Position numbers and translations under genes: made by a program
Notes under the pieces: model-generated
Seen by the model: the letters and a program-made list of their open reading frames with translations, nothing else
Told to the model about the DNA's origin: nothing
Databases searched by the model: none
Part shown: one piece after another, positions 2,068-45,021 of the stretch
Layout of the letters: the number at the start of each line of letters is the position of its first letter
Numbering within the stretch: the stretch's first letter is position 1
Assembly (NCBI GenBank): GCA_963281255.1
Contig: OY725501.1
Coordinates: forward strand, 3,821,674-3,885,673
DNA: 64,000 nucleotides
Direction: 5' to 3'
DNA from: Aphrocallistes beatrix
Lineage: Eukaryota > Porifera > Hexactinellida > Sceptrulophora > Aphrocallistidae

Positions 2068-2135
2068 ATGTTGCAGTCAAAGTGCGTTTTCAGCCAAAAC
2101 GCGTTTTGGCTGAAAACGCACTTTGACTGCAACAT
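2068..2135. repeat. 68-bp perfect palindrome in the 3' end of the broken VLIG copy
   Basis: Bases 2068-2101 and 2102-2135 are exact reverse complements with no spacer (centre AAACG|CGTTT). It interrupts the last coding stretch of the broken VLIG-like copy, and the stop codon of that frame lies inside it. It may be a fold-back insertion or templated repair tract, or a library or assembly artefact. Confidence 0.9.
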
Positions 2136-5100: not shown

Positions 5101-5215
5101 ATGTAGTACTTATTTGATAATACTGCTTCTCTCCAGAGAATTTCCAAAGTGCATACAGTCTTTCCGACTAATAAAAGTTCTTTAGAGATTATCCTGAGTT
5201 CCTGTGATAATTTCC

Positions 5216-5242
5216 ACAAGATTAGTGCAGAATTTTCATGAC
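5216..5242. repeat. 27-bp direct repeat, copy 2
   Basis: This is the original-context copy of the 27-base word, placed at the first frameshift boundary of the broken VLIG gene. Together with copy 1 it brackets the 3.2-kb segment 2023-5215. Confidence 0.8.
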
Positions 5243-7439
5243 CCAGAATTTTATAAAATGATGTACAATAATACTCATGCTAGATTCTTCGAGAGTTTTT
5301 CGGAGCTCTCCACAATTTGTATTTAGATCATCGATTACATTCTGATCAATTTCGTTTGAAGCTTTGTAGAAACATTGCATATATTCGATAAAATGCGGAT
5401 AATAACTGAGAAAAGAGAATTTATTCTCGCTTGAATTTTTGATATGTGATAGAATGATACTTTTGATCCTCTCGACCAATGATTTCTCCTTTTCCACATT
5501 GTTCCAAGGACAATACTGACCTATCAAATTTTCAAGGAAATTGTTTTCAACTACTCTCGGACTTTCAGTAGTTGAATGTAAGATTGTATACCCAAACTTT
5601 TTTATGGGAGTTAATGCAAATTGCATGTCACATTTGGTGAGATTAGGAATGAAAAGAAACTTTAATCTCCCACTTTCCTTGACTTGAAGTATATCTTGAT
5701 GACTTTCTGGACAATCTCGAACTAATACATATACATACTTAGTGTTGATTGTAATTTGACTTAAATCTCCTTGTGAGTGAGCATAGTTTTTCTCATAATC
5801 AGAATAACTGACATGAACTAATGCTATGTCTAGGTTGTGACAAATGTCTCGTATTACGTTTGTATCTGAACATGCGTGACAGTCTATGTATGCCCATTGA
5901 GTAGATTCGTGAGCAGTTCTATTTTTTTTTCCAAACAGATTTTTCGTCATTTGTATGTCAATGGAGTTTAAGTGGAACGGACTGGTTTGAGGACTACCTT
6001 TCACAAAATCAGTTTTAAACATCAAATCGAGTAAATGAGATTTTCCAATAGGATTCCATGAGGCCCATCCTAACCCAAATGAAACTAAACCATTGAATTG
6101 TTGAATAGAAAACCAGAGCTCTTTACAAATCTCGAATTGATACGATGTTTCGCTCAGTTGATTGTAGCTAGATTTTGTATTTTTTACGATATGAGATTTG
6201 AGCCTAGGATAGTAGAATGGAACAGGATTACTGAATGAATAATGTTCTATGCAGAGACCACTGAGTATAGGTTCTGACATTTGGAACAGTAGATGGAATA
6301 TGTCCAGTGTAGTAAGAGATATGTTAGTTAGCTCAGCGAATATCTGTGAAAATTCTTTTAAGGGCAAACTGCATTTGAGGTAATAGAATGCAATAGGTAG
6401 AAGTCTCTCAAATATCTTCTCTGCTGACTTTTTCTCTGATGCTTTTACTTTATGTATTAAGTTTTCGAGCGAATCTGAAATAATCATTCTGTAGGTTATG
6501 TGTGATATTTGTTTATCTAATCTACATATCTCGTAGATGTCTTGGATTTGTTTCATTTTCTCCTGTGCACAATCTTGCATGAGTTCGTCGTCTGGAGAAA
6601 ATTGTAGCAAATAGTCTCTGATCACTATCCTGGGCCTATTTAGCTTTGTGCTGAGTTCATCGATGTCTTCCAGGGTACTAGCTCTGATACATTTCTTTGC
6701 TTCGTTACTTAATGTATCATCGATTTCAAAGAAGTTTTGTGATTCTTGAAAATTTTCGAAATACCTTTTGACTTCTCCATATTCTTTCGGATTAGTTTCT
6801 TTCAGATCCCAGCAAATTTCTTGGAGCTTCACGTTTTTATTTACAATCATTTCTCTCAATTTCATTATTGGCTGCTCTCCAAAATCTTTGCAAATGATTG
6901 CTAAAGCTTTCTCTCCTTCTGTCCCAATGAAGGTAATATAATTCCTCTCAACATATTCTCTGATCTTCATCGGAGATGTTTTCAATTCCTCTGCGATTTC
7001 TGCTATAGAGTATCCAGCATTATATTTCTTTTTTATGATCAACTTTTGAGATTCAGTTAGTTTTTTTGTGTTCAGAGACTCTGTATAGGCTGAGAAAACA
7101 TCGTTGTCAATGTCATTTAGGAGAGCAAGCTTCTTCAAACTGATAGTTGGATTTTTTTTCACCAACTCCTCAAATTTCTTAACCTCTAACAATAATAGCT
7201 CATCTTTATAGGTTTTTAATTCAGTTAAGGTATGTTTTGCTATCTTAAGCTCTATTTCTAACTTTTCTGCTAAAATTTCCGGATCGTTTAGGAACTGTTC
7301 TCCTTTTTTGATGATATATTCTACCTGATTCTTTTCTAGACCGATGTGGAAAAGTTTAGCTTCCAATGAATGGTTTTCCGATTGTGATCTAAACCACCAC
7401 ATACTGTATGTGGTTTTGCCACTATACACATACAATAAG

Positions 7440-8030
7440 ATTCATGATTTTATAAAACATTAGGGAGCACAATAGAATGTCAGTTATCCGAACATGATGG
7501 GAACAAAGGGGATTCGGATAAGTGAAATGTTCGGATAACTAAGTTCAAAAGCTGGAATTCAGATATGTTACTCATGTTACTTTAAAATAATTCCCACTGT
7601 GCTAGACAATATTCAATTGGTATCCATAGGAGTAGCCAATGGGCTTGCAGAGCCTGCCCGCAGGCCCACTAAATATCCTGCAGGCCCAGAAAATGTTCCT
7701 GCAGGCCCAGTTAAGACGGACCGTACCCCCTGGCAGGCCCTTGTCAGCGCCACTGGCTACGCCCCTATTGGTATCGCGGTGCATTTGCTGGGATGTCTGA
7801 ATGAGGACTGCTTGAGAAATGTGGAGGCTAACTGTTTGGGATTTTATCTAGATAAAAGACCTTTGCGTGCTTGAGCTGCGCGGCTCGCGGACACTTTTTA
7901 AATTTAATTCATGATCGCTAATTGGTAGGCATAGATAGTGTTATGCTGTATGCGAATATGTTCGCTAGGGCGCTCCAAAAACTTTTAAAGTCTGAAACTT
8001 TCGATAAGATACATTTTAATTATCTAAAAC
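7440..8030. other. Intergenic repeats, including a GC-rich Helitron-tail-like patch
   Basis: Bases 7480-7550 hold short words related by inversion (GTTATCCGAACAT and ATGTTCGGATAAC), probably a small inverted-repeat element. Bases 7655-7720 carry four copies of 'ctgcaggccca'-like words. Bases 7780-7840 resemble 48612-48665 ('ggtatcgcggtgcat...gaaatgtctgaatg' and 'gtggaggc'). Bases 7865-7900 (GCTTGAGCTGCGCGGCTCGCGGACAC) resemble the minus-strand Helitron tail at 17977. The open frame across 7599-7874 looks fortuitous. Confidence 0.4.
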
Positions 8031-8115
8031 AGCGGTGGGGAACCTGGGGTCCCCGAGGCTAAATTTAATGACCCGCGACTCTTTCCAAACACTCTATTAT
8101 GGGGCCCGAATATCT
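8031..8115. mobile_element. hAT-like element, one end only
   Basis: It begins CAGCGGTGGGGAACCTGGGG and continues with the reverse complement of the right end of the element at 29055-29368. No partner terminus was found within the next few hundred bases, so this is a truncated copy. Confidence 0.6.
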
Positions 8116-8231
8116 GGTGATCAAAGAAAATTATTTGAATAGTGTGCACCCAAACTTTAGAATTTTTGGGAGCACCCTAGGATACATTGAAAGAATGTTT
8201 GTGTTAAGTTTGATCTGGTTAGACTAGAATT

Positions 8232-8605
8232 TTAAGATCACATGGACGGTTGTCTTGCACTGTGAACATTAACGGATTATTCCTTATAATAATACCCACA
8301 ATATGTCAAATTAACATGGGATAAATTTCACGTGTTTACAAGTTAGCTAAAATTAAATAGTTGATCAATCATGGTTCATGACTATTCAGCATAGCTAATA
8401 TTAAAACCCACTAATTCATAGGTCAATGATCCTGCTATTTGTTCTAAAGGTCCGCTCTACCAATTAGAAAAAGGCTATGCTACCTGATTGGAGGAAAATA
8501 AATCAGAATAGCGAAAAGAGAATACTGAGAGTTAGCCAAGAAATGATATAGCTGATATACTGTAGATAATTTCTTCAGGGCTAATAGGCCTCTTAGTACA
8601 TATTT
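8232..8605. repeat. Duplicated about 370-bp segment, copy 1
   Basis: It is closely similar, in the same orientation, to 18156-18497, sharing for example 'acggattattccttataat', 'gggataaatttcacgtgttt', 'aatcatggttcatgact' and 'cagaatagcgaaaagagaat'. Copy 1 lies upstream of the broken VLIG gene and copy 2 upstream of the intact one. That fits a tandem duplication that carried 5' flanking DNA. Confidence 0.75.
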
Positions 8606-8849
8606 AGCAACCTGATACTGATTACATAAATATATCGAATTATACTATTACAATATTGGTAGTGAAATGGGTGTGCTGCAATAGTTATTGGTTTTACAGC
8701 CACATGGTAAACCTTTTTAAAAATGTCGGGCGACAGATGATAGTGCCGCTCCATTAAGTGATTTCATTGGTCAGCACATTTGACCACATTTTGAAGCAAG
8801 GTGTGAAAATATTAATGATGGATAGAGAGTGATTTTCACTTTCTCATAC

Positions 8850-8985
8850 TCATTGCCTTCAGATAGTGATCCAAAAAACAACGAAGCCATTTACATATGT
8901 GCTTTTAACGCTATATGCAATAAGCCTCATAATTTTGTTTGACTCGTAATTATTTGAAAATATTTTCTCATTTATGTAATCAGAG
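8850..8985 (-). pseudogene. VLIG-like gene, stub of the first codons and 5' flank
   Basis: The complement of 8888-8890 is an ATG followed by a reading that matches the first dozen or so residues of the intact gene (M-A-x-x-F-F-G-S-x-S-E-G). The flank to 8985 matches 16259-16350 upstream of the intact gene. The reading then departs from the family. It is a relic of a further VLIG copy. Confidence 0.65.
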
Positions 8986-9679
8986 ATCTCCAGTGGTTGA
9001 ATAAAACCGAATAAAAATGTATGAGATATATATAAGCAGGGATTTCCAATTAGATATAATGGAGTTTTTCAAAACTACCTGGCACTGTCAAAACTTTAGA
9101 TAGGAGCATAGTAACTAGCTGGTGGAATAGGCAGGGGGTTTTTTAGGATTTGCTCAGAGGACCCTGCAAAGGATTAGTGGTCCCTTACCTGGAATACTAC
9201 ATTTTATGATATTCAGTATATTACGAATGTTAAGAAATTAGAGGTCCTTGAAGAGAAATTAGAAGTCCTTCTGGGCCCTCTAATTTACCTTAAAAAAACA
9301 CTGGGTATAGGTGTCACTTAAACACCCCCAGCTGGTTACTATGGAAAGATCTCTCTGGAAGTGGACAGCAGTTGTCTCAAAATTTGCACGGATTCATCCA
9401 ATAGGAAAAAATTCAACGAATGAATGTTCAAAGTAACATTCATAATTCAAAGTACCACTTTCGTTATAACAAATCTGTTTATGAGATTCAAACAGTTTGG
9501 TATAACAGAAGTCGACTAAAGTTAATATTAATATATATATGAAGAATAACTAGAAAATACTCGAAACCTATAATCCAGTGCTAAAGGAGGATCTAGTCTT
9601 ATACTAAGGGGAGGAGTGGGAAACTAACTTGCTACAGCTATCTGTTGTCTACGCTAAACCTAATACCTAAATAGCTATT
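8986..9679. other. Intergenic, no gene seen
   Basis: No coding signal recognised. This segment follows the 3' end of the intact VLIG gene (minus strand). I did not find a clear terminal inverted repeat pair. Confidence 0.4.
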
Positions 9680-12600
9680 CTAAAAGTCATTTTTTAAGTC
9701 AATAAACACATGTCCATCGTGTTTGGATTCCTTTGCAGAGGTGAGGGTGACGTCAGATGTAGTCTGATCATCAACTGGGGTTCCTCCTGTGCAGTAATCA
9801 GGATGCAAACTGCTAATGAGTCTTTTACGTTTATAAGCAATGTTTAACTGTTTCATTTTATTCTTGATATCTCTCTTCCAATCAAAATGACAGCCCTGAT
9901 CACAGGTACCTTTAGCTTTAAAAATATTGAAATTTTCTTTTGTAGGTTCAACGTAAAAGTGAACAATGACGTTCTTAATCCCAAATCCAGATTTCCATCC
10001 ACATTTTGTAGTTGCAGTAGCTAGACCATCCAGCATCGCTAGTAAATCTTCCTTTTCACCATAGTTTTCAATAGGTTCGAGGAATTTTTCTATACTCTGT
10101 TCATCTGTAGTAAATTCAGAATTATTTGGAAACATTTCTATGCACTTTTGGTCTTCTACAGCATGTCCATGATAGACGATTACTTTGAAATTCGATGTGT
10201 CTGCATCTGAATCCTTCATGACATCTGAGACCCATCTTTTAGCATGCTTAAGAGCAACACCCATAAAATCGGTTCCATCAACCACGAAGCACACATAATA
10301 AACTGGTGAAAATAGAGACTCATATATCTCCTTAGGAGAGGTGTAAGGGATAAATGTTATCTGAGTACCTCTGTTTCCATAGTAAGTAAGTATTTCTTTC
10401 CCAAATGTATTCCAGATTATTTTCATTGTCTCGTAATTCTTCTTTTGGAGAGCTACGTATTTTGGATCATTTGGAAGGTCCCAATCCCATTCGTTACAGA
10501 ATTTCTCCTTAAACTCCCCCCACGTCATGTTCTGACCTAGAATGAGTACTGGTGAGTCATCTTTGTAGTCTTCACACATCAATAACACAGCAGTCCTGTC
10601 TTCATCAGTATTCCAGACATTCCCTCCCATTGAACACATCTGATGACCTGTTAGTATCTGACACTTCCCTCCGTTCGGATGAAGTTCCTTCTCACAGAAT
10701 TTCCCACAGCTAGGACACTTACCTGGACAGTTAATGATGTTTGCTTCAAAATTTTCTTTTGTCATTTCCAAGAGATTTTCATACTCACCTTCATGCAATT
10801 GGAACTGGTAGGAATTTAATGCAGCCAAAAATTCACGTAAATAAACTTCAATGTTGAATATTTTCTGAATGTCCACAAACATATTCGTATCTGATAATAT
10901 CTTAAATATCTCCTTATCTAGGATATGTTCTGGATTATTTGGTTTTTCAAACAGTACGTAGGTATGAGGATGCTTTCTTACTTTTACGTCGTCTATTTCA
11001 AAGTCGTTGTTGAAAAATTGTTTGAAATATTCGGGACTCACTCTGGGATCGAGGTACATTTTGAGGAATAATACCATTGCTTTAAGTGGAATTAGTCTTG
11101 TAGAATTAATATTAGTAGCAGATTCTTCTGTTGCTGGTTGATCGACTACCTCAAAGTTGCTATCTGAATCTGTTCCTATTTCCTCCAAACGTTGTTTTTT
11201 TGTACACATTGTCTTGAGCTGTCGTAAGAATTCCTCTAGGACATTATTGACAATTGTTATTTTTTGGTTAAAACTTTCTTCTAAATTCCCACAGATTCTA
11301 TCGTGGAGTTTAACTACGACTTTTTTCCATTCTTCTTGGAATAACGATCTCAGACATTGAGTGCGATTGCAAATAAATTGAACTATGAAATTGGTTTCAT
11401 CAACAGGTTTCGAATGAAGTTTTTGGGTGGTAATTTTATTCGCAAGGAGTAAGATACTTTTATGTGAAAGTTGGTCTTTTTCGTTAACAAAATATTCTTC
11501 CTCAATATTTTGTTTGCAAGTAGCTTTGATCTCTCTCCCTACACCCGCGAGAAAATCTCCAGTCAATTTTTTCGCTATGTTCTTTTCACCTTTTCGCATT
11601 GCTTTTCGGTCCCAATTTCCTCTGGCCAATTTTTGATATTCAACTTTCTGCAGAAAATATTTAAGAGTAATTTCTTTGTTTTTTTCTTTCATTAAATCGT
11701 TTTCTTTTTGTTTCGCCATATTAGTTTCCAAAAGTGACTTAAACGCAAAAGCAAATGCATAAGTGGAAATTGTTCTCTCTGCAGCATTTGTTAATTTGGC
11801 CTCGATGTAGCTAATTTCATAGTTCACCACCTTAAAGATGTGACTCAAAAAGTTCACAATTTCTTTCACGGTTGAATGAGGAATATTTGGGTCTTTATTA
11901 GTGAACTCTTGAACGTTTAATTTGATGTCATTGATAAGTTTTTCCCAGGTACTCCTTTCGAAATCATCTGGATCTTTCAGTTTTGAGGCAAGTAGTAGTA
12001 TTTGTTCTCTCTTCTCGGTATTCCAAGTAATATCAGGATGGCTGTAATAGCCAGAACAGTATCTAACCAATGAATAACATTTTGATGGAACCCATTCCTT
12101 AAATTTGAGATTATATTTTCCTACCTCGCTACGGTAATTATCATCTTTCATGGAGAACAAAGAATTTCTAGCTAAATATTGGCACTTTTTATTTCCTAAG
12201 TATGGAGTCATTTCCTTTAAGGGCGTTCTACTCTCTGTCCAAGGATAGATGAACTGTTCAGTTCCTTTATTAGTTTCACAAAACTCGAGCATATCTTTTT
12301 CAAGCTCTCGTATTACATTATCCATAATGAATTCAGACTGGCGAAATCGGGCGTAAATCGTTTGATTTTTTTCCATAGTTTTTGATTCGATCATGAAAAC
12401 TGAGTACAAGTTTTCGAATTTTTCATCATATTCTGCACTTTCTTTTTCGTATTTATTTTCAAAGCATTTAATCCAGACATCTTCAAATAGACTCTCTTGT
12501 TTATCAATTGGTAATTCAAAATATGTGTCAGCATTCGCCTCAATTTCTTGTTCAAGCTTCAAAAGACTCTCTTTATGCCTTATGGCAGTCAGTCTATCTC

Positions 12601-15600
12601 TGATTCTGATTTTGAGTTTGTCTTCATAAATCTTTTTCTCCCTGTAGATAAGCCTGTTCATATTCTTTTTGGAATCATCACGCATATACTCCATTTTTTT
12701 AAGCAATGGATCAGCCTGGCATTTTTCTATAAAATCTGTCAGAGTTTTGCTTTTATCTTTATCGAAAACTTCATCCAATTCTTTCTTTACATCTTCTAAT
12801 ATCACATTAGGAGGACTCCACTTTTGGATGTCATTAATTAAGAGTATTGATTTTTCTGCAATAGCTTGGTAAATTTCCTTATTTTGGTGGATTATGTTTA
12901 TCATCAAATCATCCACTATTTTGCGAAGTAAAATGCTACATTTCAATTCTTCAGTATTTCGATATTTTACTATGTCTTGGTATTTGATGATGGTGTCCCA
13001 AATAACGCCAAACATCCCTATCCATTCACTCATGGAGTTGAAAAGTGTTTTAGTATCGTGTGTATTCTCTAACTGATGGATAATAGACATTCTCAAATCA
13101 GCACATTTATTGGCGAAGCTCTCAGTTGGAGATAACTTGAATAGATCTGAATCAAACAACTTGCACATCTGAGTGTTCACAGTTTCTGAATTAAAAGCAG
13201 AAGGAAGAACAAATAAATTTCTTTCAGAAACTTGTATTAAATCTGAAATCTTTGTTCCTTCTGTTTCCATTAGATCTGATTCCTTGTTCAGTTTATTCAA
13301 AAGAGTATTAATTGAACTCAAATGTTTTTCTGGATCTGGATCTGCTTGTTGATTGAGGACAAAGAATATTTTAGGAGCTGCTACTTTGCTAACTTTCAGT
13401 TTGTTTAGAGAGTAGGCACAAATCTGTAAAAGATTCCGCATTTCCTCTCCGATATCTCCTTTCACATTGATGATGATAGCTTGTGACACTGCTAGACAAA
13501 ACAGGACCATTGTCCTGTCAAAGTTAATGCAGGAAGTATCTTGAACGGTTTTTGCCTTTTCAATTGCATCCAATCCTTCCGTGTCTAGAATCAGGAAATG
13601 ATCCGAGTGATTGATTGGTCGACTGAGTTTGGAGAGAGATGCATACACTCCTTTGGTGCATCTTCCAGCACTAGTCAAGAACTTGCACCCGAAACAGTAG
13701 TTCAGTAGTGTAGACTTCCCAGAACTCTGAGGTCCCAATATGCTGATCACGATTGGAGGGCGTTTCTTTTTCTCAATCGCTATTTTTCCTTTATTTTGTT
13801 TTTCATATAATTTGGATAATAAACCATTAATCTCTTGGTTAAAGAATCTCAAGTTATCTCCATCGATCAATTCGAATGGCTCTCCTCTTTCAACGTGGTT
13901 ACTGAAGGATTGTGAGAAATTGCCTAAGAAACTTTTAGTTGATTTGTCACGTTTGTCGCCATAATTCTTATATGACAACACTGCTTCTCTCCAGACAATC
14001 TCTAAAGTGTACCCATTGCCTCTAAATTTCAGTTCTTTAGAGAGTATACTGAGTTCCTGTGACAATTTCCACAAGAGTAGTGTTGAATTTTCCTGATTTA
14101 GAATGTTATTAAAATGCTCAACAATTATACTCATGTTAGTGTGCATGAGGATATTTTGCAGAGTCACACATTTTGAATTTAGCTCAGCAATCTTCTTTTG
14201 TTCAACTTCGTTTGAAGCTTTATAGAAACAAAACATATATTCGACAAAATGTGGATAGTAACTTAGGAAAGATAATTTATTTCCACTTGAATCCTGTACA
14301 TGTGATGAAATGGTGTTCTTAATATTTTCGATTAATATTTTACCTTTAAATACATCATTGCCAGAACAATACTGACGTATCAACTTTTCAAGAAAGTTGC
14401 TATCGACTAGTCTCGGACTTTTAGCAGTTGAATGTAGGATTGTATATCCAAACTTTTTCAAAGGAGTTAATACTATTTGCATATCATATTTGGTCAGATT
14501 AGGAATGAAAAGAAACTTTGTTTTCTCACTATTCTCAACTTCAAGAATATCTCGATGGCATTCTGGACAATCTCGAACGAATACATAGACATGTTTGGTG
14601 GTGGCTGCGATGGTTTGTAATTCTTTCTTAAAATGGTCAGTGTTCTGATTATAATCAGAATAACTGACATGAACTAATGCGATATCTACATTTTGACAAA
14701 TGTCTCGTATCACGTTTGTATCTGAACATGCGTGACAGTCTATGTATGCCCATTGAGTAGATTCATTACCTTTTCCATCTTTCTTTCCGAACAGATTTCT
14801 GGTCATTTGTATGTCAATGGAGTTCAAGTGGAACGGACTAGTTTGAGGACTTCCATTCACAAAATCAGTTTCAAACATCAAATCGAGTAAATGAGATTTC
14901 CCAATAGGATTCCATGAGGCCCATCCTAACCCAAACGAAACCAAACCATTGAATTGTTGAATAGAAAACCAGAGCTCTTTACAAATCTCAAATTGACATG
15001 TTTTTCTTTGTTTTTGAAATTTTTGCTTCAAATAAAAAAAATGATAATTCAGTATAGGATAGTAGAATGGAACAGGATTACTGAATGAATAATGCTCTAT
15101 ACAGAGACCTCTCACTACAGGATCTGACATTTGAAAAATTAGATGGAATATGTCCAGTGTAGTAAGAGATATTTTAGTTTGGTCAGCGATTATTTGTGAA
15201 AATTTTTTTAGGGGTAGACTGCATTTGAGGTAATAGAATGCAATAGGTAGAAGTTTTTCGAAAATCTTATTTGGTGACTTTTCTTCTGATGTTTTCACAT
15301 TATGTATTAAGTTTTGAAAAGAATCTGAAATGATTATTCTGTAGGTTATGCGTGATATTTGTTTATTACCTGCTCTAAATTTCTCGTAGATATCTTGAAT
15401 TTGTTTCATTTTCTCCTGTGCATAATCTTGCATGAGTTCTTCGTCTGGAGAATACTGTAGCAAGTAGTCTCTGATCACTATCCTGAATCTATTTAGCTTT
15501 ATGCTGAGTTCATCGATGTCTTCTAGAGTGCTAGCTCTGATACATTTCTTTGCTTCGTTACTCAATGTATCATCGATTTCAAAGAAGTTTTGTGATTCTT

Positions 15601-16258
15601 GAAAATTTTCGAAATACCTTTTGACTTCTCCAAATTCTTTCGGATTAGTTTCTTTCAGATCCCAGCAAATCGTTTCTTGTAGTTTCACGTTTTTATTTAC
15701 AATCATTTCTCTCAATATCATTATTGGCTGCTCCTCAAAGTTTTTTCTGATGATCGCTAAAGCTTTCTCTCCTTCTGTCCCATTGAAGGTAATATAATTC
15801 CTCTCAACATATTCTCTGATCTTCATCAGAGATGTTTTCAATTCTTCTGCGATTTCTGCTATAGAGTGTGCATTATATTTCTCTTTTATGATTAGCCTTT
15901 GAGATTCAGTTAGTTTTTTTGTGTTTAGAGACTCTGTGTAGGCTGCGACCACGTCATCGTCAATGTCATTTAGGAGTGCAAGCTTCTTCAAACTGATAGT
16001 TGGATTGTTTTTCACTAATGTCTCAAATTTCTTAACCTCTGACGATAATTGCTTCTCTTTATAAGCTTTTATTTCAGTTAAGGCTTTTTTGGCTTTCGTT
16101 GAGTCTATTCCCAACTTTTCTGCTAGAATATCTGGATCGTTTAGGAACTGTTCTCCCCTTTTAACGATATATTTTACAGCATCCGCTTCTAGGCCTAATT
16201 TTAGAAGTTTATCTTCCAATGACTTGCCTTCAGATCGTGATCCAAAAAACCTAGCCAT
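9680..16258 (-). CDS. Very large inducible GTPase (VLIG/GVIN)-like protein with C-terminal vWA-like domain
   Basis: This is a single uninterrupted frame of 2192 codons, in keeping with the one-exon layout usual for VLIG genes. Residues about 1-240 are charged and helical with a helix-turn-helix-like stretch (SIAEIAEELKTS, near 128). Residues about 440-640 hold a degenerate G-like fold with an IGKS remnant. The VLIG-type G domain starts about 840: GPQSSGKSTLLN (G1), the family hallmark SAGRCTKG, ILDTEGL (G3, about 890) and LNQQAD (G4-like, about 969). A long helical region follows. Then a Cys/His cluster (CPGKCPSCGKFC, about 1843, then H-x-x-C) and a vWA-like segment (VVDGTDFMG about 1991, MLDGLATATT about 2076, ending in an IVHFYVEP strand). 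VLIGs of other animals are cytosolic interferon-inducible GTPases. A role in defence here is inference. The vWA tail is not part of vertebrate VLIGs as I know them. Confidence 0.85.
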   Translation of the reverse strand: MARFFGSRSEGKSLEDKLLKLGLEADAVKYIVKRGEQFLNDPDILAEKLGIDSTKAKKALTEIKAYKEKQLSSEVKKFETLVKNNPTISLKKLALLNDIDDDVVAAYTESLNTKKLTESQRLIIKEKYNAHSIAEIAEELKTSLMKIREYVERNYITFNGTEGEKALAIIRKNFEEQPIMILREMIVNKNVKLQETICWDLKETNPKEFGEVKRYFENFQESQNFFEIDDTLSNEAKKCIRASTLEDIDELSIKLNRFRIVIRDYLLQYSPDEELMQDYAQEKMKQIQDIYEKFRAGNKQISRITYRIIISDSFQNLIHNVKTSEEKSPNKIFEKLLPIAFYYLKCSLPLKKFSQIIADQTKISLTTLDIFHLIFQMSDPVVRGLCIEHYSFSNPVPFYYPILNYHFFYLKQKFQKQRKTCQFEICKELWFSIQQFNGLVSFGLGWASWNPIGKSHLLDLMFETDFVNGSPQTSPFHLNSIDIQMTRNLFGKKDGKGNESTQWAYIDCHACSDTNVIRDICQNVDIALVHVSYSDYNQNTDHFKKELQTIAATTKHVYVFVRDCPECHRDILEVENSEKTKFLFIPNLTKYDMQIVLTPLKKFGYTILHSTAKSPRLVDSNFLEKLIRQYCSGNDVFKGKILIENIKNTISSHVQDSSGNKLSFLSYYPHFVEYMFCFYKASNEVEQKKIAELNSKCVTLQNILMHTNMSIIVEHFNNILNQENSTLLLWKLSQELSILSKELKFRGNGYTLEIVWREAVLSYKNYGDKRDKSTKSFLGNFSQSFSNHVERGEPFELIDGDNLRFFNQEINGLLSKLYEKQNKGKIAIEKKKRPPIVISILGPQSSGKSTLLNYCFGCKFLTSAGRCTKGVYASLSKLSRPINHSDHFLILDTEGLDAIEKAKTVQDTSCINFDRTMVLFCLAVSQAIIINVKGDIGEEMRNLLQICAYSLNKLKVSKVAAPKIFFVLNQQADPDPEKHLSSINTLLNKLNKESDLMETEGTKISDLIQVSERNLFVLPSAFNSETVNTQMCKLFDSDLFKLSPTESFANKCADLRMSIIHQLENTHDTKTLFNSMSEWIGMFGVIWDTIIKYQDIVKYRNTEELKCSILLRKIVDDLMINIIHQNKEIYQAIAEKSILLINDIQKWSPPNVILEDVKKELDEVFDKDKSKTLTDFIEKCQADPLLKKMEYMRDDSKKNMNRLIYREKKIYEDKLKIRIRDRLTAIRHKESLLKLEQEIEANADTYFELPIDKQESLFEDVWIKCFENKYEKESAEYDEKFENLYSVFMIESKTMEKNQTIYARFRQSEFIMDNVIRELEKDMLEFCETNKGTEQFIYPWTESRTPLKEMTPYLGNKKCQYLARNSLFSMKDDNYRSEVGKYNLKFKEWVPSKCYSLVRYCSGYYSHPDITWNTEKREQILLLASKLKDPDDFERSTWEKLINDIKLNVQEFTNKDPNIPHSTVKEIVNFLSHIFKVVNYEISYIEAKLTNAAERTISTYAFAFAFKSLLETNMAKQKENDLMKEKNKEITLKYFLQKVEYQKLARGNWDRKAMRKGEKNIAKKLTGDFLAGVGREIKATCKQNIEEEYFVNEKDQLSHKSILLLANKITTQKLHSKPVDETNFIVQFICNRTQCLRSLFQEEWKKVVVKLHDRICGNLEESFNQKITIVNNVLEEFLRQLKTMCTKKQRLEEIGTDSDSNFEVVDQPATEESATNINSTRLIPLKAMVLFLKMYLDPRVSPEYFKQFFNNDFEIDDVKVRKHPHTYVLFEKPNNPEHILDKEIFKILSDTNMFVDIQKIFNIEVYLREFLAALNSYQFQLHEGEYENLLEMTKENFEANIINCPGKCPSCGKFCEKELHPNGGKCQILTGHQMCSMGGNVWNTDEDRTAVLLMCEDYKDDSPVLILGQNMTWGEFKEKFCNEWDWDLPNDPKYVALQKKNYETMKIIWNTFGKEILTYYGNRGTQITFIPYTSPKEIYESLFSPVYYVCFVVDGTDFMGVALKHAKRWVSDVMKDSDADTSNFKVIVYHGHAVEDQKCIEMFPNNSEFTTDEQSIEKFLEPIENYGEKEDLLAMLDGLATATTKCGWKSGFGIKNVIVHFYVEPTKENFNIFKAKGTCDQGCHFDWKRDIKNKMKQLNIAYKRKRLISSLHPDYCTGGTPVDDQTTSDVTLTSAKESKHDGHVFIDLKNDF

Positions 16259-20760: not shown

Positions 20761-23205
20761 ATGCATCATCGTTCCTATCAATCGATTCTCCCCACACACA
20801 GCAAGCTGCTACAACAGCGATGGGATGAGACTTACTTCCAAGAACATCGACGACGCATTAAAACTGCCTTTCCCATTGTGTCAACTTCGGCGCCTAAAGT
20901 TCGCTCCCACGTAATGAACAAGCTAAAGAAGCAACAGCGAGAATCTGAGAGGATGGAGGTTGTACAGCGTGATAACCACGCTCTAATGGTGAACATGGAA
21001 AATATAATGACTAAGGGCGGATATGTCGATCACCAGAATAGCTACAACCATTGGAGTCTTAACTATAATAAACGAGCGAATGAGTTGCAGCGTATTCAGA
21101 CTGAGAATATCAAGATGCTGGGTCGGATCCAATCACGGGAGTCATATTATTCCGTTTCCGAATGGCTGAAGGATCGAACTGAGAAAGAGAGACTGCTGAA
21201 GATGATCTCCGCCCATCCGACACAGCGGACACATTCAGCTAGACTCTCAGCTAAGAAAAGAGATTCACAAGCCTTGCCTTCTCTATCCTCCCAGGTCAAC
21301 GAGAAAAGCAGCATTTTAGAAATCGAGGATTCGGATACGATAGCTTCATTGGAGAGAGACAAGGAACTCGCACTTAGAAAGATATCAAAGTTTTCCAAGA
21401 CCTGGCTACAAGAGATAAGGAGTCTCAGCAATCCCCCCGTTGGAGTTAAATTGGCCGTAGAGGCAACTTCTGTTATTTTCCCTCAAAACGCACAATCCCG
21501 CTTCTCTTCTCCTACGGCGCTCCAGGATTTCCTATCATTTGACAAAGAAAACATTCCTTCTTCACTGCTAGAAAAACTGAAACCCTATATCGACAATCCA
21601 GAACTCAACTCTGATAGGCTAAAAAAGGTGAGTTTGAGTATCTTCGGTATAATGGAGTGGGTGAGGGGGGTCTATCAGTATGGGATTATCACACATAAGC
21701 TGAAACAGTTGGGTGTTTACCCCAAACAGGAACCACCACAACAAAAACAATTTAAAGATATCCAATCTTCTCCCCCTCTCTTACCACCAACCAAGGAAAA
21801 GGGTGGCAAATTCAAAATAGAAGTTTCGGATTCGGATACGATAGATTCATTGGAGAGAGAAAAGGAAATTGAGTGGGAAATTGCAGTTAGAAGCATGTCA
21901 AAGGTTTCAAAGTCATCGCTAAAAGAGATGAAGAGTTATAGCAAACCGCCTGCGGGTATTATATTGGTCCTAGAGGCAACTTATATTCTATTCACTCACA
22001 ATGTAAAACCTTTCCCCTTCTTGAAGGAAGTTCAGGATTTCTTTTCGTTTGATAAAGAGAACATTCCTTCTTCAGTGCTAGAGAAGTTGAAACCCTACAT
22101 CGACAATCCAAACCTCAACTCTGATCATTTAAAAAAGTTGAGTCTTTGTAGTGTCGGTATAATGGAGTGGGTGAGGGGAGTCTATCAGTATGGGATTATC
22201 ACACATAAGCTGAAACAGTTGGGTGTTTATCCCAAACAGGAACCAACACAACAAGAACAATTGGAAGATATCCAATCCTCTCCCCCTCTCTTACCACCAA
22301 CCAAGGAAAAGGGTGGCAAATTCAAAATAGAAGTTTCGGATTCGGATACGATAGATTCATTAGAGAGAGAAAAGGAAATTTCAGTTAGAAAGATGTCGAA
22401 GATTACAAATGCCTCGATATCAGAGATTAAGAGTTTCAGCAATCCTCCCCCAGGCGTTGTACTAGTCGTAGAGGCAACTTCTATCCTATTCACTCACAAT
22501 GTTCAACCTTTCCCCTTTATAATGGAACTCCACAAATTCTTCTCATTTGACAAAGAGAACATTCCTTCTTCAGTGTTGGAGAAACTGAAACTCTACATCG
22601 ACAATCCATACCTCAACTCTGATAAGTTGAAAAGGGTAAGTTTCAGTATCGTCTGCCTGATGGAGTGGGTGAAGGGGGCCTATCAGTATGGGATTATCAC
22701 ACATAAGCTCAGACAGTTGGGTGTTTACCCCAAGCAGGAATCACCACAACAAGAACAATTGGAAGATCCCCAACCCTTGCCACGAACCAATAGCAAATTA
22801 AATATAGAAGTCACTGACTCGGATACGATAGATTCATTGGAGAGGGAAAAGGAAATTGCAGTTAGAAATATGTCAAAGATTTCAAAGAACTCGCTAACAG
22901 AGATTAAGAGTTTCAGCAAACCCCCTGCAGCAGTTAAATTGGTCCAAGATTCAACTTCTATTCTATTCACTCACAATGTTCAACCTTTCCCATTTTTGAA
23001 GGAACTCCAGGATTTCTTTTCGTTTGATAAAGAGAACATTTCCTTTTCAGTGCTAGAGAAGTTGAAACCCTACATCGACAATCCAGACCTCAAATCGGAT
23101 AGATTAAGCTGTGTCAGTCTCAGTATTGTCGGTGTAATGGAGTGGGTCAGGGGGGTCTATCAGTATGGGATTATCACACATAAGCTGAAACAGTTGGAGG
23201 GCTAA
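20761..23205 (+). CDS. CFAP97-domain protein fused to four dynein-stalk microtubule-binding domains
   Basis: An intronless 814-residue frame. Residues about 55-150 match the CFAP97/hemingway domain: a basic K-K-Q-x-R-E-S-E-R lead, R-D-N-x-x-L-x-x-x-M, I-M-x-x-G, then SLN...R-x-x-E-L-x-R-I-x-x-EN and a W-x-x-D-R-x-K-E closing motif. After a linker come four repeats (about 191-323, 357-493, 523-660, 685-812). Each has a short helix ending in a coiled-coil exit (EIKSFSxPP), then V-x-x-A-x-x-I-L-F, FDKENI, LEKLKPYIDNPxLxSDxL, EWVRGVYQYG and KLKQL. This order and spacing is that of the dynein heavy-chain stalk-tip microtubule-binding domain and its flanking helices. Two linkers are near copies (PPLLPPTKEKGGKFKIEV). 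No motor, ATPase or TM segment is present. CFAP97-domain proteins are axonemal, so I infer a microtubule-associated or cross-linking role in cilia or sperm. The start is the first ATG of the frame. Domain calls are by eye but the motif agreement is strong. Confidence 0.85.
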   Translation: MHHRSYQSILPTHSKLLQQRWDETYFQEHRRRIKTAFPIVSTSAPKVRSHVMNKLKKQQRESERMEVVQRDNHALMVNMENIMTKGGYVDHQNSYNHWSLNYNKRANELQRIQTENIKMLGRIQSRESYYSVSEWLKDRTEKERLLKMISAHPTQRTHSARLSAKKRDSQALPSLSSQVNEKSSILEIEDSDTIASLERDKELALRKISKFSKTWLQEIRSLSNPPVGVKLAVEATSVIFPQNAQSRFSSPTALQDFLSFDKENIPSSLLEKLKPYIDNPELNSDRLKKVSLSIFGIMEWVRGVYQYGIITHKLKQLGVYPKQEPPQQKQFKDIQSSPPLLPPTKEKGGKFKIEVSDSDTIDSLEREKEIEWEIAVRSMSKVSKSSLKEMKSYSKPPAGIILVLEATYILFTHNVKPFPFLKEVQDFFSFDKENIPSSVLEKLKPYIDNPNLNSDHLKKLSLCSVGIMEWVRGVYQYGIITHKLKQLGVYPKQEPTQQEQLEDIQSSPPLLPPTKEKGGKFKIEVSDSDTIDSLEREKEISVRKMSKITNASISEIKSFSNPPPGVVLVVEATSILFTHNVQPFPFIMELHKFFSFDKENIPSSVLEKLKLYIDNPYLNSDKLKRVSFSIVCLMEWVKGAYQYGIITHKLRQLGVYPKQESPQQEQLEDPQPLPRTNSKLNIEVTDSDTIDSLEREKEIAVRNMSKISKNSLTEIKSFSKPPAAVKLVQDSTSILFTHNVQPFPFLKELQDFFSFDKENISFSVLEKLKPYIDNPDLKSDRLSCVSLSIVGVMEWVRGVYQYGIITHKLKQLEG

Positions 23206-23362
23206 ACAGAGAGATGTCACTTCTGATACCATCCTTACTAATTAGATATTTTCGAACACACTATATTCGTTTTTTATTTATTTATTTCCTTATTTTTATG
23301 TAGCGTTATATTAGATTTCTCACTTACCTTTAGTATATTCTTATATACATTTTCATATATTA

Positions 23363-23499
23363 CAGTAGAACTCGGATAAGACGTACCCCTCCGGGAGGGG
23401 GGAAAAAGTACGTAATAACCGAGTTGATATTACATAGGAATCTAAATTTTAAATGGATTATTGTTCAGAGAAATGAAACGTACTAACCGAGTTCTACTG
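23363..23499. mobile_element. Tc1/mariner (pogo-like) MITE, TA flanks
   Basis: TA-CAGTAGAACTCGGATAAG at the left and the near complement AACCGAGTTCTACTG-TA at the right, 137 bp. Between the ends are a short GC-rich hairpin (CCCCTCCGGGAGGGG) and repeats of the 'gtacgtaataaccgag' motif. Non-coding. Confidence 0.75.
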
Positions 23500-23837
23500 T
23501 ATTTATATATATTCTTATGATAATGTGATATTATCTCTCCCTTTCTCACTGATTTATAACGAAACAGGCTTTTGTTAGAGTAAAATCCTAAAAATTGGGA
23601 CTGATAACTGTATCTAAAATTGTCAAAAAGAGGTCATGGATTGAATATACTTTTAAAGACCTGATTCGCTATGAAAACCTTCAGCTAAGTCATATGATAT
23701 GCACTCTCCTGCCCAATCAGCTGAAACATTTAGAACCCGACTCCTCGCAAACCATTAAGGACTAATTGTGAGTTGTATTCAGAGAGAAACTGGACAACTG
23801 CATATGTGATAACCTAGTTCCCTAAATCAGTTAGGAT

Positions 23838-23880
23838 TATATCATCAGAATCCCATTAAATCACTCCAGAATTCATATTT
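23838..23880 (+). promoter_or_regulatory. Conserved upstream block of CD225-like gene 1
   Basis: The words ATCATCAGAATC and ATTAAATCAC recur with similar spacing before genes 2 and 3 (25013-25040 and 25927-25970). No transcription factor can be named. Confidence 0.4.
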
Positions 23881-23931
23881 ATACGAAGTATGCAGATATT
23901 TTATGTGTTTGCTTGCAACGAACTTTCAAGG

Positions 23932-24567
23932 ATGTCCTATCAACCATTAAAAGAGGACGAGTTGGTACTTGGTATCCTCCAAACTTCCGATATCGCTGAA
24001 ACTCCTGAAACTGAAACGGAGGAGAAACGATCTCCAAGGCACTCCATATGTCTATCTCTCGTGCTAGCCGTGATTGCACATTGTTGTTGCATGGGACTAG
24101 GAATTATTCCTCTCATCATGGTCATATTTGCATATGTAAAGCGAGAAACTGGGAAATATGAAGATGCTAGACGCATAAACCAATATTCCAAGAGTGTTTC
24201 CACTTGTCTGATAATCTTCTTCATCCTTCTGCTCTCCTTTGCTTTCTTCTACTCCGTTAGCGTTGAGTTGCATAGTAAGAAATTTAGTCGTGGTTTGATA
24301 GCAAAACCCAATCCTGAAGACATGAGGTATCCTCCTACAGATTATATAGAGAATAGGTACTACACTGATGATGAAGATGATGGAGATTTGTATTATGAAG
24401 ATGATGAGGATGGAGATATGTATGCTGAAGATAATGAGGATGGAGATATGTATTATGGAGATGATGAGGAATATTCAGATAATGATGACCAATACCAGAT
24501 CCTGGATGAAGATATTATCGATGATGATGATCAGCTGACAGAACATCAAGATGAATACTATAATTAA
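23932..24567 (+). CDS. CD225/dispanin-like membrane protein 1, acidic tail
   Basis: The start is set at the ATG beginning MSYQPL because all paralogues in this window start there. An in-frame ATG 42 bases upstream is less likely. The protein has about 211 residues. Residues about 30-110 hold two hydrophobic segments separated by a conserved basic loop (AYVKRETGKYEDARR), with CCCMGLGIIPL in the first. This is the CD225/IFITM-type plan: Cys-rich membrane helix, proline/glycine kink, basic loop with G-x-Y-x-x-A-x-R, second helix. The C-terminal third is almost wholly D, E, Y, G and M, in imperfect 10-residue repeats (DEDGDMYxEDN). CD225 proteins sit in endosomal or plasma membranes, and some block virus entry in vertebrates. 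Function here is unknown. First of four tandem copies. Confidence 0.8.
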   Translation: MSYQPLKEDELVLGILQTSDIAETPETETEEKRSPRHSICLSLVLAVIAHCCCMGLGIIPLIMVIFAYVKRETGKYEDARRINQYSKSVSTCLIIFFILLLSFAFFYSVSVELHSKKFSRGLIAKPNPEDMRYPPTDYIENRYYTDDEDDGDLYYEDDEDGDMYAEDNEDGDMYYGDDEEYSDNDDQYQILDEDIIDDDDQLTEHQDEYYN

Positions 24568-24789
24568 GCATATTGTAACTTTAAAATTGATTTATTCTGA
24601 GTTTATTTCCCCCTATCATTATTATTCTTGAGTCTGTATGAATAAGAATTGGATTCCATCTCTCTTGTGTGAATTATTGAAGTCGGATATAATCAGATAT
24701 AATAACTTGTCTCGTTTGGTTTTGTTGTTATATCGTACAACAGTCACATCATATGTGAGCTTAATTTAGAATATCCAAATGGTGGTGCT

Positions 24790-24837
24790 ATTTATTAAAA
24801 AAAACAAAAAACATTAATCGAGTTTTAATAGCAAGGA
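24790..24837 (-). mobile_element. Helitron-like 5' terminus fragment
   Basis: Read on the minus strand from 24837 it is TCCTTGCTATTAAAACTCG continuing ATTAATG, nearly the same as the start of the element at 61690 and also preceded by A. Only the terminus can be recognised. Confidence 0.55.
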
Positions 24838-24964
24838 TGATAACTTCGCTTACAGACTGGAATCTCTTGTCAACCTAATGAAGTGAGTATTAATTTATAT
24901 TGTCTGGACTATGGATACATGTAAAAATTATAGAAGTTGAATTTCATAAATCCGTGATGATTTT

Positions 24965-25078
24965 GCTTGACACAAGACTCCTGTACATTTATCGAGTTTC
25001 CTAATGACATTAGATCATCAGAATCTATAATTAAATCACATATTTAAACTCATTAATTAAAACTAATGTATTCTGTCA
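24965..25078 (+). promoter_or_regulatory. Upstream region of CD225-like gene 2, shared with gene 3
   Basis: It is about 110 bases alignable to 25890-26003 before gene 3, including 'ttatcgagtttcctaatg', 'atcatcagaatct', 'atcacatatttaaactcatt' and 'aattaaaactaatgtattc'. The similarity probably reflects recent tandem duplication, with a TATTTAAA core possibly serving as a TATA-like element. Confidence 0.5.
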
Positions 25079-25087
25079 AATTTAATA

Positions 25088-25576
25088 ATGTTGAATCAAC
25101 CATTGAAAGGGAATGAGTTGGTACCTGAAACTGAAACGGAGGAGAAAAGATCTCCAAGGCACTCCATATGTCTATCTCTCGTGCTAGCCGTGATTGCACA
25201 TTGCTGTTGCATGGGACTAGGAATTATTCCTCTCATCATGGTCATGCTTGCATATGTGAAGCGAGAAACTGGGAAATATGAAGATGCTAGGCGCCTTAAC
25301 AAATACTCGAAAGATGTCTCTGCAGTTCTAGTCATCTTCTTCATAATTCTGCTCTGCTTTGCTTTCATCTATTTCGTTTGCATTGGGATACATAATGGGA
25401 AATCGCAGCAGAATGTGTTGGCACCAAATGATAGAGGGATGGCTCCTTTTGAGGATAGAATTGACGATGGATACCACACAGACGAGTATAGTGATTCGGT
25501 TGAAGGTATGTATGAGGAGGAATATTCGGATATCAATAACCAATACCAAACTTTTGGTGAAGACCAACCATATTAA
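25088..25576 (+). CDS. CD225/dispanin-like membrane protein 2
   Basis: 162 residues, the same plan as gene 1. An N-terminal cytosolic segment (MLNQPLKGNELV, then a run of T and E) is followed by SPRHSICLSLVLAVIAHCCC and GLGIIPLIMVMLAYVKRETGK, the G-K-Y-E-D-A-R-R loop, and a second hydrophobic segment. The acidic/Tyr tail is shorter (YSDSVEGMYEEEYSD). The membrane core is nearly identical to gene 1, while the tail has diverged strongly. The start is aligned with its paralogues, although the second residue is L rather than S. Confidence 0.8.
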   Translation: MLNQPLKGNELVPETETEEKRSPRHSICLSLVLAVIAHCCCMGLGIIPLIMVMLAYVKRETGKYEDARRLNKYSKDVSAVLVIFFIILLCFAFIYFVCIGIHNGKSQQNVLAPNDRGMAPFEDRIDDGYHTDEYSDSVEGMYEEEYSDINNQYQTFGEDQPY

Positions 25577-26012
25577 CAATGAGCTACTAGATGACTGAGA
25601 TGATTGTGTTTATTTGTTATAACTTTAATAATGATAAATTTAATTGTGGTAAATTGTTTTCTCTCATAGTTATGTGATATCCCTCTATAAACAAGTATTA
25701 ACATGTACGATAGCAACCAATGAGTTTAGAATGTATTACAGTTACTTGCAGCCGTGAAATATCTGTATCAGACGCCCTTTGGGCACCAAATAAAGTGAAA
25801 TAAAAATAGATTTTGCCTGAACTGTGCATACATTTGAAAATTTAAAATTATAAAGTCAGCTCAGCTGATAATCACGTGATGAGTTTGCTTGACACGAGAC
25901 AGATGCTTCAGTAACTTATCGAGTTTCCTAATGTCAAATCATCAGAATCTATTATTATATCACATATTTAAACTCATTAATTAAAACTAATGTATTCCTG
26001 CGGAATTTAATA
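25577..26012. other. Intergenic between CD225-like genes 2 and 3
   Basis: It contains a small piece (GACGCCCTTTGGGCACC, 25768-25784) like the GC-rich inverted word of the Helitron tails. It ends with the conserved promoter-like block 25890-26003. Confidence 0.4.
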
Positions 26013-26344
26013 ATGTCGAATCAACCATTGAAAGGGGACGAGTTGGTTCCTGAAACTCCTACAGAGGAGAAAAGATCTCCAAGGCACTCCATATGTCTAT
26101 CTCTCGTGCTAGCCGTGATTGCACATTGTTGTTACATGGGCTAGGAATTATTCCTGTCATCATGGTCATGCTTGCTTATGTGAAGCGAGAAACTGGGAAA
26201 TATGAAGATGCTAGGCGCCTTAACAAATACTCAGAAGATGTCTCTGCAGTTTCTCTAATCGTGTTTGCAATCTTCCTTTTTTGTGTTGTCCTCTACTTAA
26301 TATCTGCTTGTATTCTACATAAAGTGGCTTATTGCATTGGTTGA
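26013..26344 (+). pseudogene. CD225/dispanin-like copy 3, frameshifted
   Basis: It starts with ATG and matches genes 1 and 2 through the first membrane segment (MSNQPLKGDELV, then the SPRHSICLSLVLAVIAHCC block). One base is then missing from the 'catgggactagg' found in the paralogues ('catgggctagg' near 26136-26146), giving an immediate stop. The other frame carries on with the remaining core (AYVKRETGKYEDARRLNKYS and a second hydrophobic segment) and ends at 26344 without the acidic tail. Most simply a recent pseudogene. Confidence 0.85.
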
Positions 26345-27559
26345 AAATCTTTATTGAATAATAATGTATTCTGACTAGTTTCTATTTGTAATTGTTGTTT
26401 TCCTGTTTTCCATTCTTTGTAAACAAAAATATGAATAATACTTTTCTCTTAGTAAGGTAGAATATACTTTATTTATTTGTATTATAATTACGCGAGTCTG
26501 TTACATTTCAAAATTATCTGAGATTACCTGCTTCTCCACCAGTTTGAGCAGTTCTTAATGTTTACTAACTTTATTTTCTAATAAAATTGTTTGTTTGTCG
26601 CAAAGCGACCGATCCCATAGAGCTCTTATTCCTAGAAACATGACAGGCAATATAACCACATTCGCATTATGGAATTTGTTAGAGCTAATACTTGTATTAT
26701 CAAGTTTCAATAGTTCACTTTCTTCAAATGTATACTTTTCAGATTCAAAAGGGAAGTTAACTAATCTATATGATCTACGTAAGTACAAGTGCTTACAACA
26801 AATTCAATTAGTTATATCTTACACGTGGATGTAAGAGCTGTATAGTTGGTGATAGCTACTTTCAATAAAGTGGATAATTTGAGCTATCTATGCAATATCC
26901 TGTGTGTGTAGGTTGCATTCCTATCGGTACCATTCTCTCATATATATATGACAAATAGATTCAAAACTTGAATGAAACTAACAGAAACTTTGTCTGTGGT
27001 TATAGAAAGGATAATAGTTAAATGTTAGAATGAGGTCATTTGGGATAAAATATCCATTATTATAATATAAATTTGATGATCCCTATGGATAAGCTAGAAC
27101 CCACAAGTGACTAATCTTCAAGTATAAATTCAGTCTACACCGTACAGTATGTAGATTCTAGAGTTCATATCTTGTATATTTACAAATTTAATATCGTTAC
27201 CTAAGAGGGAAGTTAGAATTTTAGATATTTGGACTTATTCTTAACGTCCTTTGAAATATTTTTTATTTATTCAGTACTGCTTATTCCAATTATTCCAAAC
27301 CTACTGGAACAAATGGTAGCATTGTATTGGCTGAAATACTCTCTGTCCAGTTACTATATATATAGAACTGATTTAGTTAGAAATATAATAAGACCCATAA
27401 CGGTTCCAGCGATTTTTATTTAATTAATCCAGTGTTATCTTTCCCCTGGACATCTGATACATCTCGAGTGGTTCGAGACATCTGACACTAAAACCAGCAT
27501 TCCTAATTTAGAATTAAACAATCTTATTGATTTGTGTTTAGATACTGAATAGCATCAGG
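26345..27559. other. 1.2-kb intergenic region, no gene seen
   Basis: AT-rich. Small frames at 26595-26834 and 27229-27423 have no recognisable domain. 27430-27500 has two close copies of 'gacatctga' around 'ctcgagtggttcgag', a small inverted structure of unknown meaning. Confidence 0.4.
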
Positions 27560-28144
27560 ATGTCTTACAAGCCATTGAGAACGGAGACGATTATCTTAGC
27601 CAAAGAACCCTCAGATGTCCCAAAAGGCGCCCCACAACCAGTTCGTCTGCCCAAACACTCCATCTCGATATCCCTGGTCCTAGCCATCATTTCGTACTGC
27701 TGTTGCGTAGGCCTGGGCATAATCCCACTGATCATGGTTGTGTTTGCCTACGTGAAGCGAGAAACAGGCAAGCACCAAGAGGCGAAACGCCTAAGCAACT
27801 GCTCTCGTGTATTTTCCACCGTCCTTATAGTCCTCTCCATCATCCTAATAGTCGTGTTCGTAGCACATAGCATTGTCATGGCAGTCTATGGCAGGCAGTT
27901 GCAGCATAAGATGTCCAAACATGGACATCCCTATGGTAACGACATGGTCTACCCACCTGGTGATGACGTCATCTACCCACCATCTGATTATGTGGACTAT
28001 AAAGATGGAGATGTGTATAATTTGCCACGAGATGATATGGATGGACCGGAAGAACCCGAGAATTTGGGAGCAGATAACGTTGATTATGAGGTATACGACA
28101 TCCTGAATGATCTGACTGAGAATGAGGAGAATGGAGACGAGTAA
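27560..28144 (+). CDS. CD225/dispanin-like membrane protein 4
   Basis: 194 residues, with MSYKPLRTETIIL at the start. A proline-rich cytosolic lead is followed by LPKHSISISLVLAIISYCCC, GLGIIPLIMVVFAYVKRETGK, a basic loop (K-H-Q-E-A-K-R-L) and a second long hydrophobic segment. The tail after residue 115 is D/Y/P-rich with repeats of the D-x-V-x-Y-P-P type. The base composition is more GC-rich than in genes 1-3, and the membrane core is more distant from them, so it is an older branch of the family. Confidence 0.8.
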   Translation: MSYKPLRTETIILAKEPSDVPKGAPQPVRLPKHSISISLVLAIISYCCCVGLGIIPLIMVVFAYVKRETGKHQEAKRLSNCSRVFSTVLIVLSIILIVVFVAHSIVMAVYGRQLQHKMSKHGHPYGNDMVYPPGDDVIYPPSDYVDYKDGDVYNLPRDDMDGPEEPENLGADNVDYEVYDILNDLTENEENGDE

Positions 28145-44654: not shown

Positions 44655-45021
44655 TAAGAGCATTATATTGCATTAAGGAGTCCCATGTTATTTTGTATGA
44701 AATAGCTCAGTAATATAAATGATATGTGATCCTCTAACGATGTCATCTCTATGCACCTGTATTACAACTTAGAAATTCAATAGATTGATATGAATAATAT
44801 GCTGACATGGATTTTCCTATACACTCCACTATACTACAGTATATATGCTGTTACTATATGGATTATGCTGAATTGGAGTAGACTATGGGATTACTTGACT
44901 ATTCTATAATTGTAACATAACTCCTTCCCATATAAATACAAGGCCCAACTAATATTCTACATCTCCATACAAATTCCAACAAATCTTCTACATCTCCTTT
45001 ACAACCAAACAACTACCAAGA
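44655..45021 (+). promoter_or_regulatory. Promoter region of CD225-like gene 5 (duplicated inverted at 43328-43700)
   Basis: A TATAAATA word at about 44932-44939 lies about 85 bases before the start codon and is also kept in the inverted copy. About 370 bases of flank are retained in both copies with few changes, so the copies are recent or under constraint. Which factors bind is unknown. Confidence 0.5.

Follow-up and report, generated by a model that had tools for sequence, protein, structure and literature searches.

A glass sponge gene joining a CFAP97 domain to four tandem dynein microtubule-binding domains

The gene and its domain organization

A 64,000-nucleotide stretch of the genome of the glass sponge Aphrocallistes beatrix (the window; C15:3821674-3885673 in a genome of 100.5 Mb and 28 contigs) contains a gene that encodes a CFAP97 domain followed by four copies of the microtubule-binding domain (MTBD) of the dynein heavy-chain stalk tip, and its layout is shown in Table 1. 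The reading frame has zero internal stops, and its start codon is backed by two relatives described below, P0005 and P0016, which open with the identical residues MHHRSYQSILPTH.

Table 1. Positions of the fusion gene and its parts in the window, and of two paralogues on contig C11.
Feature	Position	Strand	Evidence or remarks
Complete single-exon coding sequence, 814 amino acids plus stop: CFAP97 domain and four dynein MTBD repeats	20761..23205 (ATG at 20761, stop codon ends at 23205)	+	Open reading frame (ORF), Pfam, start residues common to relatives
Hmw_CFAP97 domain (PF13879), residues 29-124	20845..21132	+	Pfam 64.5 bits
MTBD repeat 1 (residues 191-313): first coiled-coil (CC1) stub, globular tip, second coiled-coil (CC2) stub	21331..21699	+	Pfam, sequence
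Pro/Gln-rich linker 1, 44 amino acids	21700..21831	+	
MTBD repeat 2 (residues 358-483)	21832..22209	+	Pfam, AlphaFold model
Pro/Gln-rich linker 2, 44 amino acids	22210..22341	+	
MTBD repeat 3 (residues 528-649)	22342..22707	+	Pfam
Pro/Gln-rich linker 3, 37 amino acids	22708..22818	+	
MTBD repeat 4 (residues 687-808)	22819..23184	+	Pfam, sequence
P0016 gene: CFAP97 and one MTBD, 336 amino acids	C11, within L014:2149-7582		Intact single-exon frame, same strand as P0003 gene
P0003 gene: three MTBDs without CFAP97, 513 amino acids	C11, within L014:2149-7582		Intact single-exon frame

A sequence-only reading of the window had proposed an N-terminal CFAP97/hemingway-type domain and four stalk-tip repeats, and both are recovered by Pfam. 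The Hmw_CFAP97 profile scores 64.5 bits (1.6e-17; cut-off 25.6), and the dynein stalk profile MT (PF12777) scores 96.7 bits over the protein (1.9e-27; cut-off 24), with four stretches that each pass alone. The N-terminal part is homologous to CFAP97/CFAP97D1 of the Hemingway family, matching CFAP97 chain 8snb over residues 3-186 (1e-26), and the remainder matches the stalk tips of DHC2, DNAH1, DNAH2, DNAH6 and other dynein heavy chains. The best-scoring MT stretch spans just profile positions 97-207 of 344. The protein had also been read as motorless, and this agrees with the profile scan, in which MT and Hmw_CFAP97 alone exceed the cut-off among the seven Pfam families listed, and nothing passes for an AAA+ ring or linker.

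The four repeats share 64-78% protein identity with one another. Four motifs had been described in each of them; FDKENI and YIDNPxLxSD are indeed present in all four, but EWVRGVYQYG is exact in only three, with EWVKGAYQYG in repeat 3, and EIKSFS[NK]PP is exact in two, the relaxed form E[IM][KR]S[LYF]S[NK]PP being found in all. At the DNA level, 300-nt copies are 62-90% identical in register to the reference copy (the 62% copy extends beyond the stop codon), and their start-to-start spacings of 510, 498 and 477 nt are all multiples of three, which keeps the repeats in frame. Repeat 3 is absent as a separate match in the whole-genome family search, which lists the other three individually. Each repeat opens with a [ST]DT[ILV]xSL motif (at 21331, 21832, 22342 and 22819), a position at which the dynein stalk differs; its D, T, S and L are invariant in 20 aligned repeats of the family, partly by construction, as a pattern of this kind was used to locate the repeats.

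Relatives in sequence databases

Among roughly 5.8 billion proteins searched, with 7,993 candidates scored, five (P0002-P0006) proved closely related to the window protein as a whole, which was itself recovered together with seven dynein fragments; P0014, P0015 and P0016 came from a profile search in which 7,985 candidates were scored. We infer that the CFAP97-MTBD fusions form a glass sponge family, of which one member is named to species, an Oopsacas minuta entry labelled hypothetical protein LOD99_4171. Both domains score above the Pfam whole-protein cut-off in eight of the nine family proteins scanned, the ninth being P0003, which has MT without CFAP97; P0014 starts within the CFAP97 domain (profile positions 41-100).

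Repeats were identified with the pattern [DTSNE][DN]T[ILV]xSL, and two further motifs count identically, save for an incomplete repeat in P0015. There are 25 complete repeats in the counted set, from which the incomplete second repeat of P0015 and P0017 were left out: one each in P0016 and P0015, two in P0006, three each in P0003, P0004, P0005 and P0014, four in the window gene and five in P0002. Alignments A3 and A4 omit five of the 25 (P0002 repeats 2-4, P0003 repeat 3 and P0004 repeat 2). P0015, a Trinity transcript record from EukProt, has a single frame that runs from CFAP97 through repeat 1 into part of a second repeat and then a divergent tail; this speaks against separate transcripts for the two parts in a relative, not in the window gene itself.

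The sequence-only reading knew of no described protein with this architecture. Among the open-access papers listed for CFAP97 and the dynein MTBD, as judged from the listings and a few passages, we likewise found no description of a CFAP97-MTBD fusion, although the O. minuta protein had already been deposited, as hypothetical. A term search of the main text of the O. minuta genome paper (PMC10280926) returned no mention of dynein. Either domain alone is already known; the novelty lies in their being combined, in the number of MTBDs and in the missing motor. Five matched chains that are named as CFAP97 or homologous to it are 158-231 amino acids long, too short for an added MTBD array, whereas members of the fusion family add one to five MTBDs. 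The repeats resemble the dynein heavy-chain MTBD in sequence and predicted fold, sharing its PP kink and the motifs of H4 through H6, but the window protein differs from a heavy chain in having no AAA ring or long stalk, in carrying its MTBDs in tandem, and in the apparent loss of several contact positions. An MTBD-like fold is also present in a protein of radial spoke RS1 (PDB 7jtk chain C), probably FAP253/IQUB, at 13% identity.

Paralogues and dyneins in the same genome

Contig C11 holds two further family members that are letter-for-letter the same as the database proteins P0016 and P0003 (Table 1). These two genes have an identical C-terminal tail and flank an unrelated ORF, which by eye resembles a SUMO-activating-enzyme subunit; the shared tail suggests that the pair arose by segmental duplication. 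CFAP97 matches occur at five places in the genome: the window gene, the P0016 gene, two places on C9, and a canonical-type protein of 189 amino acids on C1, which starts MHRAYQPITPANNKLLKK, a beginning similar to that of chain 8snb. Because this canonical-type protein is separate, the fusion is an extra CFAP97 copy and not the animal's sole one.

Among 26 dynein family matches in the genome, 14 MTBDs could be extracted, one of them partial, and these serve below as the animal's own dyneins. The open frames that hold the heavy-chain matches at C1:1287465, C3:2724754 and C9:754260 are 4,124-4,503 codons long, near-whole heavy chains without introns; elsewhere in the genome there are dynein loci at which the MTBD is divided between frames.

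Origin of the repeats and selective constraint

When the 25 complete repeats are placed in an unrooted tree with the 14 dynein MTBDs, every repeat falls on one side of a branch with support of 100/99. They cluster mainly by protein or gene cluster, with the window's four together (99/96) and those of P0003 with that of P0016 (99/95), while P0004 and P0014 have in common an older split of repeat 1 from repeats 2-3. Since the repeats lie on one side and group mostly by protein or gene cluster, the simplest reading is that a dynein foot was captured once and has since been re-amplified or homogenised. A profile built from the repeats alone places DNAH6 nearest (75.5 bits), ahead of DNAH1 (70.8) and DNAH2 (62.5). 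Approximately unbiased tests leave six of the seven candidates for the parental heavy chain unrejected at 0.05.

Both parts of the protein look to be under constraint, the MTBDs less so. For the CFAP97 parts of the window and P0016 genes, nonsynonymous (dN) and synonymous (dS) divergence are 0.124 and 0.993 by NG86, and 0.130 and 0.736 by YN00; for window repeat 4 and the P0016 repeat they are 0.240 and 0.765, and 0.278 and 0.502, respectively. Six MTBD comparisons across the three genes give point estimates of dN/dS of 0.30-0.54 (NG86) and 0.35-0.62 (YN00), and the window repeats give 0.33-0.49 against one another. The window gene and the C1 CFAP97 share 39% identity over 160 codons, and their dN/dS comparison is saturated.

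Fold, contact residues and proposed role

The sequence-only reading had called for the MTBD helical fold in a repeat, and the AlphaFold model of repeat 2 (residues 354-495; pLDDT 88.9) is predicted to adopt it, with short coiled-coil stubs. Two reports place the MTBD's contacts with the microtubule in H1, H3 and H6 (PMC6629372; PMC7042235). We fitted mouse numbering via E3378 and R3382 (PMC4987762), after which R3342 and, more tentatively, K3298 and K3299 agree by letter; R3334 of PMC7042235 disagrees, the letter there being K. A basic residue stands at the K3299-aligned position in 21 of the 25 repeats, compared with 8/14 of the own dyneins, and the mean net charge of the core is 2.2 for the repeats, similar to the dyneins' 1.8. 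Relative to the own dyneins, then, the repeats keep one H1 contact better, and the other H1 contact and most of H3 worse; loss at individual contact positions is not rare among dyneins either, and the H3 region of the window clade is shorter and poorly aligned. From these sequence comparisons, microtubule binding by the repeats is plausible, and may be weak per head.

On balance we lean slightly toward the view that the window protein is a motorless, multivalent, axonemal microtubule-associated protein, whose passive MTBD heads would stabilise or stiffen the flagellar axoneme. Support comes from the Pfam scores of both domains and the predicted fold of repeat 2, from the basic residue aligned with K3299 and the dynein-like core charge, from dN/dS below 1, intact frames, conserved architecture and the grouping of all repeats in the tree, from the presence of a separate canonical-type CFAP97, and from what has been reported of CFAP97D1. 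CFAP97D1 has been listed with further, external microtubule-associated proteins on the doublets of mammalian sperm (PMC11779644), is placed as an outer-surface doublet protein (PMC13406575), and belongs to a module with TSSK6 and EFCAB3 (PMC13066092); its loss in mice harms axoneme maintenance and fertility (PMC7444823; PMC13066092).

Several observations weigh against an axonemal role of this kind. A number of positions that contact tubulin are badly conserved, the counts of basic residues in the repeats and in the own dyneins being 1/25 and 6/14 at K3298, 3/25 and 3/14 at K3334, 10/25 and 10/14 at R3337, 1/25 and 3/14 at R3342, and 13/25 and 8/14 at R3382. With the stubs included, the net charges of window repeats 1-4 are +3, 0, +1 and 0. 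The CFAP97 part changes more slowly than the MTBDs, for which YN00 point estimates of dN/dS reach 0.62. MTBD copy number varies from one to five per family protein, and the paralogue P0003 carries three MTBDs with no CFAP97. P0002, P0004, P0006 and P0014 pass the whole-protein MT cut-off, yet none has an individual stretch at E 0.001, and the model of the full-length window protein is unreliable (pLDDT 41.9).

More tentatively, the protein could be a passive, multi-footed microtubule clamp of a new class, in which a dynein foot was freed once from its motor and fused, as one to five feet, to a doublet-surface protein, giving an ATP-independent link or brake on dynein's stepping sites. In the favoured axonemal reading, the CFAP97 part would most likely sit on the doublet surface, by inheritance from its family, and MTBDs without an ATPase ring could not cycle and would be passive heads. 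The stalk is cut to stubs (the profile positions given above), so the ATP-driven registry switch should be absent. Tubulin dimers are spaced 8 nm apart along the lattice, and the linkers of 37-44 residues, with a contour of about 13-16 nm, could span sites at that distance; head avidity might then clamp adjacent dimers of one doublet, or link it to the next, the likely outcome being a stabilised or stiffened axoneme. A strict ruler is disfavoured by members having one MTBD alone or no CFAP97.

Among the alternatives, a repurposed adaptor is rather unlikely. Here the MTBD fold would have given up its microtubule grip, as the partial loss of contact residues might allow, and would instead dock other proteins, such as a dynein light chain or a component of the radial spoke, onto the CFAP97 anchor; the K3299-aligned residue, basic in most repeats, and a core net charge like that of true dynein MTBDs argue against it, and tandem repeats would better fit avidity for a repetitive lattice. 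It is quite improbable that the protein is a dynein decoy or brake, its MTBDs occupying the dyneins' tubulin sites and locally blocking or damping sliding: the predicted fold is that of dynein feet and no ATPase domain exceeds its cut-off, but the tubulin-contact residues are partly lost. An artefact of gene model or assembly, or a decaying pseudogene, is refuted in the main and barely credible, for although all three family genes, in the window and on C11, lack introns as retrocopies do, their frames are intact, and there are relatives in other database records (that of P0015 transcript-derived), dN/dS below 1, start residues common to relatives, and intron-free long frames at three dynein loci as well.

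Dynein's microtubule foot normally occurs once per motor and is ATP-switched through a long stalk; here it appears to be a portable module, repeated in tandem and no longer switched. Should the repeats bind tubulin, the fusion would be a lineage-specific axoneme component and a natural test of an MTBD lacking registry control, with avidity replacing affinity switching, and it raises the question of whether proteins with several such feet are in competition with dyneins or make doublets stiffer.

Other features of the window

Directly downstream of the gene, at 23361-23501, is an inverted repeat with 24-nt arms that are 88% complementary and 93 nt apart, which may be a small mobile element. To the left, 2077-16258 on the reverse strand contains by eye two adjacent, similar sets of long ORFs; one, at 9680-16258 (2192 amino acids), matches a URGCP-like GTPase, and the second is divided between frames. 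On the forward strand, 23860-28144 and 44953-46140 encode several small proteins of membrane type that are related to one another and have acidic tails, one of them carrying repeated DDDEIPDDL units; among four that were scanned, two are CD225-like below the cut-off and two show no similarity to CD225. Further right, 48660-57907 on the forward strand has at least three similar C-type-lectin-like ORFs, as judged by eye; one of them was scanned and hits Lectin_C at 3.2e-19.
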